Source: Nocardiopsis sp. CC223A (lineage in GTDB: Bacteria > Actinomycetota > Actinomycetes > Streptosporangiales > Streptosporangiaceae). Taken from it: 64,000 bases of DNA. The stretch lies in the NCBI RefSeq assembly GCF_030766825.1, contig NZ_JASFDV010000014.1:1-64000 (forward strand), given 5' to 3'. Below the pieces are notes generated by a model. It made no database searches and was not told where the DNA came from. It saw only the letters and a program-made list of their open reading frames with translations. Shown here piece after piece: positions 17,039 through 39,540 of the stretch. The position numbers and the translations under genes are program-made. How positions within the stretch are numbered: the first letter of the stretch is position 1; the number at the start of each line of letters is the position of its first letter.

Positions 17039-17868
17039 CGGTGCGACTCCAGGGGGGAGGAGGGACGTGCCGACCGGAGTCCTACCCCGATCCCGGAACC
17101 CTGTCGCGCCGCCCGGCCGGGAACGGTCGCCGTCCGGGCCGGGGGCGGTCCGGTGGAGTCGTGTGGTGGTCGTGGTGAAGGTGGTGGAGGTGGGCGGTGG
17201 GTGTGTCGGAGTCGCCCTGCGGTGTGGACGGTCCGCGCGGTGGGGGTGGGAAGGGTGGCCGCTCGGAGACCGCTTGGGCGGGGCCGGGGGCGGTCCGGTG
17301 GAGTCGTGCGGCGGCTGTGGTGAAGGTGGTGGAGGCGGGCGGTGGGTGTGTCGGAGTCGCCCTGCGGCGTGGACGGTCCGCGCGGTGGGGGTGGGAAGGG
17401 TGGCCGCTCGGAGACCGCTTGGGCGGGGCCGGGGGAACCGGGGACCGCTGGGCCGGGAGCGGGCGGTGTCCGCGGGCGGGCGGTCAGAGGGGTCGCGTTC
17501 CCTGGAGCGGTGTGACTTTCGCGCGGCTGCATCCTTGCAGCTCATCGTGATAATCGGCCGACGCCGGGCGGTCCCGAGTGGCGGCGCGCCGCTGGCCGGG
17601 GTGGACGAGCCGCCGAAGGCGGCGGGACACCGACCCGGCGGACGCCGGCGACGCGCATCTGTGAGGAGAGCGCGGAAAAGGGTTCTCGCACTGATCCTGC
17701 GGTGTGGTGACAGCACGTCACGGGCCGGGATTCGAGAGCCCGGGTGTGACGAGGGGCGAACGGAGTTCCTGCGCGTCCCAGGGCTACAGGCCTCGTAACC
17801 CTTCGCGACCGGTCCACAAGATCAGTGCCAGAACCCGGAAAAGCCACACCATGGGTGGGCCACCATCG
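17039..17868. other. 830-base non-coding gap with tandem repeats
   Basis: No gene is supported here. Open frames exist on both strands but read as low-complexity Pro/Arg or Gly/Val translations of a repeated block. The gap contains two 145-bp repeats (listed separately), a GCTGCA/TGCAGC hairpin at 17526-17541 and an inverted GTGAC/GTCAC pair near 17708-17722. It lies between the 5' end of the HAD gene and the 3' end of idi. Confidence 0.6.
17136..17435. repeat. 145-bp tandem direct repeat (2 copies plus a start of a third)
   Basis: The block beginning GGGCCGGGGGCGGTCCGGTG at 17136 recurs at 17281 with only a few substitutions, and the first ten bases recur at 17426; spacing is exactly 145 bp each time. 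The unit is not a multiple of three and lies outside any gene, so it is not a protein repeat. It looks like a recent duplication. Confidence 0.9.
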
Positions 17869-28797: not shown

Positions 28798-31035
28798 ATG
28801 GGCGCCGTGAGCGGCACGCACAACACCTCCCATGGCCCCATTCACGGCACCCTCGTCCAGATCGGCACCCTGCACGGGGCGGTGGACATCGACCAGTCCG
28901 AACGCCGGGCCGTGCGCATCCTCCCCAAGGGCCCCTCCCGTTTCCAGAACCGGGACGCGGAGCTGGCACGGCTCGACGCCTTCCTCGCCCAGTCGAGGCA
29001 GAAGGACGGCCGCCGCCTGTGCTGTGTGGTGGGCCCGCCGGGGGTGGGCAAGACCGCCACCGTCGTCACCTGGATCAACCAGAACCGCGAGCACTTCGGC
29101 CACGCCCAGATCGCCCTCCCCTGCGGGGGAGACCCGGGCGAGGGCGCGGGCCGAGGCATCGAGGAGGTCTGCGACCAGTACTTCCGGCAGATGGGTGTGG
29201 ACACCGACGCTCCGGGGTTCGACACCCTGGAGGGCAGGCTGCACCGCTTCCGGCAGCACACCGAGGGCCGCCCGGTGGTGGTGCTGCTGGACGACGTCCG
29301 CTCGGCCGCACAGGTGGAGCCGTTCCTGCCGGACCTGCCGGGCATGGTCGTCATCACCACCAGCCGCACCCCGATCAGGGGCCTGGGACTGCACGCGCCC
29401 CTCTCCCTGCCGATCGGGCCCCTGGCCGACGAGGCGGTGGCGGCGCTGCTGCGCGACATCGTGGAGGGCGAGGATCGCTTCGCCGACGAGGCGGCGTTCG
29501 CCCGCCTGGTCGCGCTCTGCGGCGGCATCCCGTTGATCGCGGGGCACGCCGCCTCCCTTCTCTACGACGACCGAGGGCTGACCGTCGCCGAGCTGGTGGC
29601 GCGGATGGAGGAGTCGGGGCGGCTCACCCTCCTGGAGGAGTCGGTGGCGAGCGTCCAGCGGCCCGCCGCCGTGTTCGACGTCTTCTATGACGAACTGCCG
29701 CAGGACGCCGCGTACCTGTACCGGGCGCTGGGCTCGCACCCCACCCGGGACTTCGACCGCTGGTCGGTGGGCGCCCTGTTCCCCGGCGCCCCGCAGGAGG
29801 CGGGCGCGGCCCTGGACCTGCTGGCCAGGCGCAGCCTGGTGAAGCAGGCCCCGGGCGGGCGCCGCATCATGGAGGACCTCACCTACGAACACGCGGGGCT
29901 GGTCGCCCGCGGTCGCGGCACCGCGCAGGAGCGGGCCCGGGTGCGGGACCTGATCTGCGACTACTACCTGTACGGCGCGGTCGCCGCCGACACCGCGGGC
30001 CGCTGGAAGCTGGGGCCGCTGTACGGTGAGCCCGCCCCGGTGCCGCTGCCCGATTTCGCCGCGGCGAACAAGGCCCACCGGGAATCGACCGCGACACCCG
30101 GGGACCTCGAACCCTGGTTGGAGCACCGCCGCCGGGTACGTGACCGTAGCGCTCTCCCGGTGCCCGGGGACACCTCGCACGAGTGGTTCGAGTCGAGCCT
30201 CGACGCGATCATCGCCTGCATGCGCCGGTCCGGCCGGCTCTGGGAGGGGGACCGCCCCCGGCCGGGCTACCGTTGGCAGCTGGCCGAGGCCACCAACGCC
30301 TTCTTCGCGGCCTACGGCCACCGGGACGCCCGGGCCACCGTCCTCGCCCTGGGCACGGAGGACGCCGAGGCCTGCGAGGACCAGGACGCGATGGCCCGCA
30401 TGCACGCCCAGTGGGGCGAGGCCCTGCTGGGACAGGGGCGCCTGGACGAGGCGGAGGAGCACCTGCGCCGCTCCCTGGCGGCCGCCTCCCACCGGGACGC
30501 GAAGGTCGTCTGGGGCAGGGGCGCGGCCCTGGAGTGGCTGGGCATCCTGGAGCGCCGCCGCGGGAGGCCGGACGCCGCCGACGTGTTCCTCGACGCGTCC
30601 CTGCCCTTCCTGGACCGTTCCCGGGCCCGGCCCGTCGCCCTGCACCACATGCACAAGGGTGATGTCGCGTTGCTGCGCGACGACGGGGCGGCGGCGCTGG
30701 AGGAGTACCGCAGGTCCGCCGAGTGGTTCCGCCGGCACGCGGACGAGAAGGGCCCGGACTTCGCCAACGAGGGCAAGGTCCTGGCGAACCAGGCCCGGCT
30801 CCTGGCGGCGGGGAGGCCGGATCAGGCGGTCGCCCTGCTGGAGTCGGCCCTGGACCGGTTCGTGAAGGCGGACCGTGCCCACCAGGCGGGCAAGGTCCTG
30901 GAACTGCTCGGCGACCTGGGCGCGGACACCCGGAAGCACTGGGGGTACGCGCTGGAGGTCTTCGGCCTCATCGGTGACACCGCCGCGGTCGACCGGGTCT
31001 CCGGCAAGCTCGCCGAACTCCCCCAGATGTACTGA
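28798..31035 (+). CDS. NLR-like NB-ARC/TPR protein with RHIM-like N-terminal motif
   Basis: A 745-residue STAND NTPase. Residues ~9-31 (NTSHGPIHGTLVQIGTLHG) contain VQIG at 20-23, the core tetrad of RHIM-type amyloid motifs. Bacterial NB-ARC proteins with such N-terminal peptides are proposed to signal by amyloid templating. The NB-ARC domain has Walker A VGPPGVGKTA (~77-86), Walker B VVVLLDDV, the sensor-like VITTSRT and GGIPLIAGHAASLL (GxP motif). The C-terminal third is TPR-like helices (MARMHAQWGEALLGQGRLDE and following). Roles in this class include stress signalling and antiphage cell death. ATG 28798 or GTG 28807 may be the start. No adjacent effector with the same motif was found. Confidence 0.85.
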   Translation: MGAVSGTHNTSHGPIHGTLVQIGTLHGAVDIDQSERRAVRILPKGPSRFQNRDAELARLDAFLAQSRQKDGRRLCCVVGPPGVGKTATVVTWINQNREHFGHAQIALPCGGDPGEGAGRGIEEVCDQYFRQMGVDTDAPGFDTLEGRLHRFRQHTEGRPVVVLLDDVRSAAQVEPFLPDLPGMVVITTSRTPIRGLGLHAPLSLPIGPLADEAVAALLRDIVEGEDRFADEAAFARLVALCGGIPLIAGHAASLLYDDRGLTVAELVARMEESGRLTLLEESVASVQRPAAVFDVFYDELPQDAAYLYRALGSHPTRDFDRWSVGALFPGAPQEAGAALDLLARRSLVKQAPGGRRIMEDLTYEHAGLVARGRGTAQERARVRDLICDYYLYGAVAADTAGRWKLGPLYGEPAPVPLPDFAAANKAHRESTATPGDLEPWLEHRRRVRDRSALPVPGDTSHEWFESSLDAIIACMRRSGRLWEGDRPRPGYRWQLAEATNAFFAAYGHRDARATVLALGTEDAEACEDQDAMARMHAQWGEALLGQGRLDEAEEHLRRSLAAASHRDAKVVWGRGAALEWLGILERRRGRPDAADVFLDASLPFLDRSRARPVALHHMHKGDVALLRDDGAAALEEYRRSAEWFRRHADEKGPDFANEGKVLANQARLLAAGRPDQAVALLESALDRFVKADRAHQAGKVLELLGDLGADTRKHWGYALEVFGLIGDTAAVDRVSGKLAELPQMY

Positions 31036-31178: not shown

Positions 31179-32974
31179 CTAGAGCCCCCGGTCGGGGGCG
31201 GGACGCAGGCCGACCGTGACCGTGCGGTCGGCGGACACGCGCAGCCGCAGCGGTCCCGGGGCGGCGACCGACTCCCGGGTGGGCGGGGCGTCGGCGCAGA
31301 CCAGCCGCTCGGCCAGGACGCTCGCCGCGAGGTGGTGGTCGTGCGGCAGCGGCGGGTCGAAGCGCAGCGCGAACACGTCGCCGCCGCGGGCGCGCAGCTC
31401 CACCCCGTCGGGCGCGTGGACGGCGGTGACCCGGGTACCGGGCCGGTGTGCGAACACGGTGGCGGACCAGCGACCGGCCTCGGCGGGCAGGGCGTCGCGG
31501 GCGGCGGTGATCACGTCCGCCGCCGAGGCCAGCCGGTGGTCCGGCTCGTCGTCGGAGCAGACGAGGATCGCGTCCCCGGGCCCCTGGGGCAGGACGGCCG
31601 CTGGGGTGCGGCGGACCCGGAGGGTGCCGGGCTCCCCGGGGAGGGGTGCGACGGCGGTCCACAGCGAGGCCGGTCCCGCGTGCCGGATCTCCGGTTCCGG
31701 AACGGCGAGCTGCGGCGGGCGCCCGGGCGGCGGTGCGGCGCCCATCATCCGGTACGCCCGGGCGCGGATGAGGTCGAGGGAGGAACCGGGGGCGGAGCTG
31801 ACCCAGGCCTCGGCGACGGCGCGGGTGGCCTCGCGCAGCTCGGCGGCCTTGGCGAGCTGGGAGCGCAGCGGGGCGTACCGGTCGAGGGGGGACGCGGTCC
31901 CGTAGAGGCGGCCCAGGCCGCTGCGCGGGTCCACGGACTCGCGGCCCTCGGGGGCGAGCAGGACGGGTTTGCCCAGGGCGGCGGCGTAGACGCCGACGGA
32001 GCCGTGGTCGGAGATGACGTGGTCGGCGGCGACGACGGCGGCCCGCCAGCCCTCCTCGGGCGGGATCAGGAGCAGGCCGGAGCGCAGGGCCTCGGCGAGC
32101 CAGGATTCGATCTGGCGCCGCCCGTGTGCGGCCCACACGTTGGGGTGGAGGATGAGCGCCACCTGGAATTCGTCGTGCGGGAGTTCGGCGATGATCTCCG
32201 GAACGTAGGAGGGGTCGATTCCGAAAAGGGAGTCGTGTTTCCAGGTGGAATTGACCGTGACGAGTGTGCGTTCGGGGTGCGCCAGGAGGGCGCGCCGGTA
32301 GTGGAGGGCGCGCGGCAGACTGGCGAGGAGGCGGTCGTGGCAGGGGTCGCCGGCGAGGAAGGCGAGGGGGAGGGCGTCGGGGCAGCCCTCGCGCAGCCGG
32401 TCGAACTGCTCGTGGTGGGAGAGGGCGATGGCGTCGGGGACGAGCCGCCCCTGGTGTTTGAGGGTGCCCTCGGACAGCCCGAAGACCTCCCGGCTCCCGG
32501 CTCCCGGCTCTCGGCTCTCGGCTCCCGGCTCCCGGCTCCCGGCTCCCGGCTCCCGGCTCCCGGCTCCCGGCTCCCGGTGCTATTCCAGTGTTTATTGTAT
32601 CCGTTTCCGTGGGGCAGCCGCAGGATTCTCGAATGGATCTCGTGGAGGTCGTCGCCGAGGCTCGCGGTGATCACGAGGTCGAATTCCATTTCCCGGGCGG
32701 TTTCCCAGGGCAGCGGGGTGAGTCCGTGGGCGCGCAGGTGTTCGTCGACCCCGGCGGCGAACACGCCGCCGGTGGTGCGTGCGCAGTGGAGCTGGACCCG
32801 GGGGTCGTCGAACGCGGGCAGCACGTCGACGATGCGGGTGGCGCAGGTGAGGCTGTGGACGACGAGCAGTACGTCGAGGTCGGTGTCCACGGTGCGCCAG
32901 CCGGGGGTCAGCGCGAGGGGGCGGACCGCCTCGCGGCGTCCCGGTGCGGGATCCCGTTCCACGTTGTCGCTCAC
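31179..32974 (-). pseudogene. Putative surface-polymer (CDP-glycerol-type) glycosyltransferase, frame broken at a 7-bp repeat
   Basis: Two half-frames together read as one GT-B-fold protein of ~600 residues. From ATG 32974 the first part runs through LDVLLVVHSLTCATRIVDVL, DLVITASLGDDLHEIHSR and LPHGNGYNKHWNST, then enters a run of SREPGAG units and goes out of frame, ending at 32066. The other frame leaves the repeat as SREVFGLSEGTLKHQG, continues ALSHHEQFDRLREG, LVTVNSTWKHDSLFGIDPSY, LILHPNVWAAHGRRQIESW and VISDHGSVGVYAAALGKPV, and stops at 31179. The last segments resemble CDP-glycerol glycerophosphotransferase/teichoic acid enzymes. With 12 repeat copies the frame is off; 10 or 13 copies would restore it. 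It may be phase-variable, a mutation, or a sequencing error. Confidence 0.75.
32491..32574. repeat. Heptanucleotide tandem repeat, 12 copies of CGGCTCC
   Basis: Twelve consecutive 7-bp units (CGGCTCC, two of them CGGCTCT) fill 84 bases inside the glycosyltransferase gene. Because 7 is not a multiple of 3, loss or gain of one unit shifts the frame. Three units encode SREPGAG on the minus strand. Such tracts change length by slipped-strand mispairing. Confidence 0.97.
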
Positions 32975-33109
32975 AAGCCGCTGAGCCTATCGATACCGGC
33001 GTCGCCGGGACAAAGCCCCTGTTCGCGGCGCACCGCCGGGCGGGAGGCGCGAATTCGCGCGGCGCACCCCCTGGATTTACTTGGACGTCCAACTATATGG
33101 TGGGGCGCA

Positions 33110-33250
33110 CAGGCCCGCGGTGTCAGGGAAGCCGGTGAGAATCCGGCACGGTCCCGCCACTGTGACCGGGGAGCGTCCCCTACGAAGCCACTGGTGAGAG
33201 CCGGGAAGGCGGGGGGAGTCGCGCAGAACCGGGAGTCAGGATACCGGCCG
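33110..33250 (+). ncRNA. Cobalamin (AdoCbl) riboswitch
   Basis: The conserved core is present in order: GGGAAGCCGGTGAGAATCCG, then GGCACGGTCCCGCCACTGTGA (split by one base here), the intervening variable arm, and the closing GGAGTCAGGATACCGGCC. These are the B12-box and flanking elements of class I cobalamin riboswitches. It sits 45 bases before a short ORF and ~220 bases before mmsA. B12 binding normally lowers expression of the gene downstream. Boundaries are approximate. Confidence 0.95.
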
Positions 33251-33294
33251 CGGGTTTCGAGTACGTGCGGTCCACGAGGATGGAGCGAACACGC

Positions 33295-33472: not shown

Positions 33473-34968
<1,496 letters not shown>

Positions 34969-39408: not shown

Positions 39409-39419
39409 GGGAGAGGGCC

Positions 39420-39540
39420 GCGGCCGCGGATCGTCCGTAAACGGGGGATCCGCGGCCGAGGGCCGTCCGTAAGCGGGAGGTTCGCTGCCGCGGGCCGTCC
39501 GTAAGCGGGAGGTTCGCGGCCGAGGACCGTCCGTTGAGGG
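39420..39540. repeat. 32-bp tandem repeat, about 3.8 copies
   Basis: Units begin at 39420, 39452, 39484 and 39516 (the last is 25 bases). Shared core: CCGTCCGTAAGCGGGAGG in copies 2 and 3, with small changes in 1 and 4. The block lies between the convergent dienelactone hydrolase and prpC genes and is non-coding. The unit carries the short inverted motif GCGGCCGC in copy 1. Confidence 0.88.

Follow-up and report, generated by a model that had tools for sequence, protein, structure and literature searches.

Genes whose expression is switched by gain or loss of units in a tandem repeat (contingency genes) are a textbook theme in host-adapted Gram-negative bacteria. In NeuO, the capsule O-acetyltransferase of Escherichia coli K1, a 7-bp coding repeat sets the reading frame through its unit number, and strains are found both ON and OFF (excerpts of PMC13001214). 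Among actinomycetes, the Pgl phage-defence genes of Streptomyces coelicolor are described as phase-varying through a G tract in pglX (excerpts of PMC4365076), and in multicellular bacteria STAND (signal transduction ATPases with numerous domains) NTPases have been placed in conflict systems with GT4 effectors that are predicted to counter invaders (excerpts of PMC8195603). The locus described here lies in a 64,000-nt stretch of the Nocardiopsis sp. CC223A genome (contig NZ_JASFDV010000014.1, positions 1 to 64,000; hereafter the window) and consists of a heptanucleotide array between the two halves of a gene for a predicted transferase. With a probability of roughly 88%, we consider it a contingency (phase-variable) gene caught in the OFF state, and from sequence comparison we extend the same estimate to phase variation of the transferase gene family to which it belongs.

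An earlier note on this DNA had proposed a phase-variable glycosyltransferase gene split by a 7-bp repeat, and most of the anatomy that it gave stands. Its count of 12 units at 32491-32574 does not: Tandem Repeats Finder (TRF) places 13.0 units of period 7 at 32487-32577 (97% matches), a difference at the array edge. In the coding direction, on the minus strand, the 13 units are 11 of CCGGGAG and two neighbouring CCGAGAG (32508-32521); the latter pair looks like the copying of an already mutated unit, presumably by duplication. The three-unit 21-mer CCGGGAGCCGGGAGCCGGGAG matches the window 11 times at up to 3 mismatches, always inside the array, against a chance expectation of 0.09; its exact matches in the 6.89-Mb assembly number seven, all in the window array, and a search of the same 6.89-Mb genome for CCGGGAG arrays elsewhere found none. 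The N-half of the gene, 130 codons from the GTG at 32974 to PHGNGYNKHW (32585-32974, minus strand), would form the first Rossmann domain with its HGxGYNK motif, and is 64-72% identical to the N-halves of six other Nocardiopsis genomes. The C-half (31179-32489, minus strand; 436 codons, then TAG at 31179-31181) starts with EVFGLSEG, would form the second Rossmann domain and a C-terminal domain, and is intact but off the frame of the N-half; it is 65% identical to the copies in Nocardiopsis genomes G021 and G010. As the note had said, the two intact halves lie in different frames, because the 95-nt spacer between them is 2 mod 3, and arithmetic confirms that loss of two units or gain of one (or of four) would restore the frame. 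The stop that it had placed at 32580-32582 (CTA on the plus strand) is a TAG on the minus strand in the C-half frame, directly 5' of the array. The present copy number is OFF, as claimed: the frame read from the N-half start ends at 32066, giving 302 aa (32066-32974, minus strand). The array itself translates to a GAGSREP-type linker in every frame.

Relatives of both halves were collected from named genomes (80 best of 286 loci), plasmids (7 records, E ≤ 1e-20), a family-level search (153 of 341 genomes, E ≤ 1e-20) and a class-level search (38 of 394, E ≤ 1e-60), 76 further stretches being taken from among the family and class matches listed; a phylum-level search (4 of 296 at E ≤ 1e-60) stands outside the counts. 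After removal of 15 copies with no N-half match, of C-half matches below 80 bits or starting past query residue 60, and of identical duplicates, and with locus L014 excluded from the C-half query set, 198 distinct two-half copies were left: 78 from named genomes, 7 from plasmids and 113 from other genomes. Within Nocardiopsis, C-half relatives occur in 24 of 40 genomes. An array stands at the linker place in 96 of the 198 copies, with period 7 in 84, period 8 in 10, and periods 6 (L082) and 12 (L202) in one each; without the last two, there are 94 arrays, 51 in frame and 43 out of frame (24 at 1 mod 3 and 19 at 2 mod 3). Of the arrays with at least 11 units, 9 of 26 are in frame. The 80 named loci alone (88 two-half copies, counting duplicates of other loci) have 30 linker arrays that are ON and 28 that are OFF; these come from 14 named genera, including Nocardiopsis, Streptomyces, Lentzea, Frankia and Actinomadura. 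The 102 copies below the array threshold are nearly all in frame (96, against 6 out of frame), and four of those six have a 7- or 8-mer repeated 2.6-2.9 times. The closest relatives of the window gene fill the place between HGxGYNK and VFGLS with arrays of AACCAGG, AGTCAGG, AAACCGG, AAACGGG or the 8-bp GCCGGAAA, again in mixed frames. By far the longest linker array, 76 copies of AAACCGG over 532 bp, is that of L019 (Nocardiopsis G022), and in IMG/VR one contig encodes a 37% relative.

The most direct evidence for switching comes from closely related strains. Linear plasmids of Streptomyces anthocyanicus NBC_01372 (Denmark) and NBC_01668 (Netherlands), both deposited as complete sequences, each have a copy. 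Between the annotated start of the ON gene and its stop, the coding sequences differ in nothing but 56 bp (eight units) of array, and a single mismatch precedes the start by 19 nt; the states are opposite, one copy reading through to 589 aa and the other meeting a stop after 239 aa, and the OFF record annotates only the C-part, as a shortened hypothetical protein. Lentzea albidocapillata and its subsp. violacea (95.8% identity) are one unit apart and ON/OFF, L013 and L014 four units apart and ON/OFF, the Actinomadura copies L101 and L184 three units apart and OFF/OFF, and the Nocardiopsis copies L092 and L096 three units apart and ON/ON. The family has the features of simple sequence repeat (SSR) contingency genes: a unit that is not a multiple of three inside the gene, two states that are otherwise intact, and a unit number that differs between near-identical strains. 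The comparison of unit numbers that the note had proposed came out in its favour, with arrays at the same place, non-triplet units, mixed frames and little decay, and phase variation, its central claim, gains support from sister pairs whole units apart and from one near-identical strain pair in opposite states. What did not hold was the picture of a lone oddity, since the 80 named loci yield linker arrays from 14 named genera.

A mechanism consistent with these observations would begin with gain or loss of units, most likely by slipped-strand mispairing during replication. Each such change would alter how the first Rossmann domain of a TagF-fold (GT-B) transferase is read on into the second. 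An in-frame array would give the complete protein, about 600 residues long, whose domains are joined by a flexible linker encoded by the repeat; an out-of-frame array would lead to an early stop, loss of the second domain and a short N-terminal product. The switch would be held at one codon place, after HGxGYNK, with a 5' array in its stead in some paralogues. Reversibility within one clone is presumed, as is enzymatic activity. The NucS mismatch repair of Actinobacteria is described as leaving indels uncorrected (excerpts of PMC8228993), and MutS/MutL as mostly absent from the phylum (excerpts of PMC5290159); indel blindness of NucS fits slippage-prone repeats.

The protein was modelled by AlphaFold2 from a natural ON copy (L010, Nocardiopsis G010) with 48 other ON copies, at a mean predicted local distance difference test score (pLDDT) of 90.9 and a predicted template modelling score of 0.90. 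In this model pLDDT falls below 50 only at residues 1-7 and 126-143, the latter being the linker coded by the array, which is thus predicted to encode a disordered linker after the HGxGYNK motif. Foldseek ranks TagF first (E 2.3e-10), and VIA-align returns a tie over model residues 4-396 between TagF (Z 21.9) and UDP-GlcNAc 2-epimerase (Z 21.8); the C-terminal domain beyond about residue 400 falls outside the structural match. Sequence searches say less: Pfam PF04464 hits 4 of 15 members at E ≤ 1 (best E 0.084) below its gathering score, gives no match to the window halves at E 0.001, and neither NCBIfam nor a PDB sequence search assigned the transferase to a family. With TagF and TarL, the CDP-glycerol and CDP-ribitol polymer transferases of PF04464, the protein shares the predicted GT-B fold and the invariant histidines of the HGxGY and HPN motifs, which are among the residues invariant across the family (HG.GY and HPN); it differs in its identity of only about 13%, in its added C-terminal domain and repeat linker, and in that no wall-polymer cluster is seen around it. 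We therefore predict a GT-B/TagF-like fold with confidence, and the word glycosyltransferase in the earlier note holds as far as the fold goes, any enzymatic activity being a call from that fold.

Downstream, 143 bp from the transferase stop, a convergent gene on the plus strand (28798-31035) encodes a 745-aa STAND NTPase with C-terminal tetratricopeptide repeats (TPRs). It contains GPPGVGKT, which we take to be its Walker A motif, and matches Pfam TPR_12 at 35.1 bits (cut-off 30.1), with AAA_16 at 30.8 bits just below the cut-off of 32.6. Its model (pLDDT 75.8) is matched best in Foldseek by the STAND-TPR structure 6mfv (E 1.2e-10), then Apaf-1 (E 8.3e-8), with plant nucleotide-binding leucine-rich-repeat receptors (NLRs) also present; the partner thus has a STAND ATPase core followed by a TPR superhelix, in a predicted fold shared with 6mfv and Apaf-1, and no effector domain was recognised in it. 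Among the neighbours of 76 named loci, called with a simple open reading frame caller and grouped by loose single-linkage clustering, a family of ATPases of about 720 aa recurs in 73 of 76, the next family (dehydrogenase-like) in 15 of 76, and polymer clusters did not appear among the recurrent neighbours. Of the 88 named copies, 62 have the ATPase in convergent orientation within 600 nt, and 7 have it divergently upstream within that distance. At E ≤ 1e-100, the STAND protein and the transferase each have an orthologue in 7 of 40 Nocardiopsis genomes, and the two sets of genomes coincide. PADLOC, run on these two proteins alone, returned no model for the transferase (three sequences), Pgl included, and for the STAND protein only MkoA over 32 residues (E 0.0065), which is not convincing. 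When the window STAND protein was compared with plasmids (187 records), such proteins proved common in Streptomyces plasmids.

What the switch is for can be answered only tentatively. The transferase and its tail-to-tail STAND-TPR ATPase may form one module, in which the switch would hedge the cost of a conflict or defence activity; we favour such a role, at rather less than even odds, because of the lasting STAND pairing and because polymer genes are not a recurrent neighbour. Published parallels are the STAND-associated GT4 enzymes (excerpts of PMC8195603) and, for phase-variable defence in Streptomyces, Pgl (excerpts of PMC4365076). A bolder and still more speculative version would be a phase-variable, NLR-like immune module, with the STAND-TPR protein as sensor and the TagF-fold protein as effector or guard, the arrays keeping the transferase ON in part of the mycelium or spores, so that a mixed colony faces phages or rivals, and with one unit sequence after another taking over at a period fixed at 7 or 8. 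The alternative that survives best is that the transferase modifies a teichoic-acid-like wall polymer and so varies a phage receptor or an antigen, with the STAND protein as a regulator or chance neighbour. The TagF-like fold speaks for it, since the best structural matches are to the wall teichoic acid polymerase, tied with UDP-GlcNAc 2-epimerases, and phase-variable genes often modify surface glycans (excerpts of PMC8437040 and PMC6479036); against it stand the absence of a recurrent polymer cluster, the recurrence of the STAND gene in 73 of 76 loci as opposed to 15 for the next family, and the co-inheritance of the pair in Nocardiopsis. We rate a surface-polymer or phage-receptor role as slightly less likely than the conflict or defence role; the main recurrent neighbour is the STAND ATPase and not a surface-polymer cluster.

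A second alternative is that array length serves the function of the protein, by tuning the linker, and that changes of frame are incidental. It could draw on the pairs L092/L096 and L101/L184, which are three units (21 bp) apart with phase kept, on the share of ON copies above one third, and on NeuO, in which repeat number is said to raise activity (excerpts of PMC13001214). A tuning repeat would be expected to be a multiple of three, and this is where the arrays speak against it. TRF analysis of the 80 named loci (1.24 Mb; score at least 50, at least 3 copies) finds period 7 or 8 in 61 of 63 arrays at the family site and in 5 of 75 elsewhere (Fisher 1.6e-30), whereas periods that are multiples of three make up 56 of 75 arrays elsewhere and 2 of 63 at the site. 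The five off-site arrays of 7 or 8 bp all belong to the family, one at a linker site at a contig end and four at the 5' end, or just upstream, of paralogues that have no linker array; within the 1.24 Mb, every 7- or 8-bp array with a TRF score of at least 50 is thus a family member's. At a TRF score of 30, additional short or imperfect 7- and 8-bp arrays appear outside family sites, and in a 400-kb sample of the complete Nocardiopsis G010 genome, which contained one array-less family member, 14 arrays of at least 3 copies include one of period 7 (4.3 copies). Since ON/OFF pairs exist as well, tuning as the whole explanation is improbable, and tuning and switching effects may hold together.

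The 5' arrays occur in 11 of the 198 copies, none of which has a linker array. That of L058 starts two codons after the ATG and is in frame. In L045 (6143-6270), L056 (3083-3189) and L249 (902-1008, its minus strand), 8-bp arrays stand between a TAGAAT- or GATAAT-like element and the gene, and these arrays might act by switching transcription, or the leader or translation start, rather than the frame.

The window copy might also be a merely broken gene, and its repeat debris. The copy is indeed out of frame; OFF copies L029 and L014 have a second frame break, which in L014 comes late in the C-half; and among the pairs tested, the ratio of nonsynonymous to synonymous substitution rates (dN/dS) for the C-half peaks, at 0.47 (N-half 0.33), in the more divergent window pair L008/L009. 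Against this, the C-half is still open over at least 380 codons in 42 of 43 OFF copies, and dN/dS over the first 260 codons of the C-half is 0.17 (L011/L012) and 0.20 (L101/L184) in OFF-OFF pairs, within the 0.11-0.25 of ten pairs with an OFF member and close to the 0.21 of the ON/ON pair. The closest ON and OFF copies are identical in coding sequence outside the array, and OFF copies recur at the same place in many lineages. We find a pseudogene very unlikely; OFF copies are maintained as sound genes and are not decaying.

Nor do we give much weight to recoding or a split gene, in which ribosomal or transcriptional slippage, or re-initiation, would yield the full or second protein at any unit number. 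In its favour, repeats are potential slippage sites, and the 43 of 94 arrays that are out of frame sit in genes with little decay. The arrays comprise, however, 43 unit sequences (rotations merged), 88 of 94 being perfect, and fall into all three frame classes, which leaves no common slip site or direction. More than half of the bases are purines on the coding strand in 87 of 94 arrays, T is absent from 79 of 94 units, and no unit has a stop triplet in any register (0 of 94); A makes up 0.36 of unit bases and 0.12 of C-half bases, and T 0.02 and 0.15. As neither 7 nor 8 is a multiple of 3, each array encodes one peptide in every frame, the linker is open in all phases, and the OFF stops lie outside it. 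The N-frame stop of out-of-frame copies lies from -176 to +517 nt relative to the C-half start, with no conserved stop-start coupling, and this scatter argues against translational coupling or a programmed frameshift. Across lineages, the copies compared indicate that the period is held at 7 or 8 and that the unit sequence is not conserved. An assembly artefact in the repeat deserves hardly any credence: the genome is a 194-contig draft, and contigs of L041, L069, L074 and L084 begin or end in family arrays, so that draft assemblies can break there and the family can be undercounted, yet the array and its frame change are found again in many assemblies, plasmid records deposited as complete among them, and the 91-bp window array would fit within a typical read.

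Several observations weigh against phase variation, or against its tie to the ATPase, and temper our estimate. Because the copies are the best matches to an array-bearing query, the proportion that have arrays cannot be read as an unbiased frequency. The in-frame share, 51 of 94, exceeds one third (p = 4e-5), so that ON is favoured or some arrays are quiet. L180 and L208 are out of frame with no repeat at all, L029 and L014 have the second breaks given above, and N-half dN/dS is less even than that of the C-half, mostly 0.06-0.28 and 0.51 for L013/L014. The pairs L061/L067, L009/L010, L149/L151 and L059/L075 also differ at the array edge, so that whole units do not account for their change in length. 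The related plasmids of S. coelicoflavus (L150) and Streptomyces (L151), 95% identical, have GCCGGAA and GCCGGGA throughout, so that arrays would turn over as a whole (concerted). One near-identical pair in opposite states was found, plus the one subspecies pair at 96%, and ON and OFF are single assembly snapshots, the window species being one strain and one assembly, in the OFF state. The ATPase lies more than 600 nt away in 13 of 88 copies and is missing from the examined stretch in 6 of 88, and the next transferase relative, in Nocardiopsis G015 (E 2.6e-97, 48% identity), just misses the cut-off and has no STAND orthologue.

A few other features were noted. On a plasmid of S. coelicoflavus NBC_00099 (L149), the GCCGGGA array is broken three times by a 6-bp GCCGGG, which has a different frame step. 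In the window, a cobalamin riboswitch (33081-33266, plus strand; Rfam RF00174, 95.9 bits) lies in the interval that separates the start of the transferase gene from an aldehyde dehydrogenase gene at 33473. Two further repeats are a 32-bp unit in 3.8 copies at 39413-39534 (TRF score 160) and two near-identical 145-bp tandem copies at 17136-17435 (96% matches).

In filamentous actinomycetes, the Pgl G tract is the repeat-tract case that we found in print; if phase variation of the transferase family holds, it would add a gene family whose arrays, in and out of frame, span 14 named genera. It would offer a system testable in laboratory Streptomyces, with one array, one gene and one ATPase partner, and would bear on how colonial bacteria diversify against phage with no host immunity as driver and on what is sensed or held in check by the many STAND ATPases of Streptomyces-like bacteria. 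It would also be a natural experiment on repeat evolution, with a conserved period and a changing unit, in bacteria whose mismatch repair reportedly ignores indels.

Among the open-access titles and abstracts listed (subscription literature lies mostly outside these), none concerns heptanucleotide phase variation in actinomycetes or a phase-variable STAND-linked transferase. Phase-variable colony types are in print for Gardnerella, also of the Actinobacteria (excerpts of PMC11287997), and excerpts of PMC3711429, in which GeneTack classed phase-variation clusters, name none like this transferase. The term "phase variation" is absent from the main text of both PMC8195603 and its 2020 forerunner PMC7159879.

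The kind of switch is known, SSR phase variation, and NeuO is the nearest heptanucleotide case found. NeuO is an O-acetyltransferase and not a GT-B protein. The repeat of NeuO stands in the 5' region, has one unit, AAGACTC, and is phage cargo (excerpts of PMC13001214); in the transferase family, the array lies between two Rossmann domains, with 43 unit sequences, in many genera. Pgl is likewise simple-repeat phase variation in a filamentous actinomycete, tied to phage defence, and differs in that its repeat is a G tract, in pglX, and the system has four genes (excerpts of PMC4365076). The suggestion that the locus would be a new kind of case in a free-living actinomycete accordingly holds for this kind of repeat and not for phase variation as such. 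The STAND-GT4 systems likewise join a STAND ATPase to a GT-B-type enzyme, but their GT4 is fused or in operons, whereas the enzyme here is TagF-like, separate, convergent and repeat-controlled (excerpts of PMC8195603). As far as the literature searched goes, what is new is the gene family, the lineage for this repeat type, the inter-domain position of the array, the changing unit and the STAND partner.

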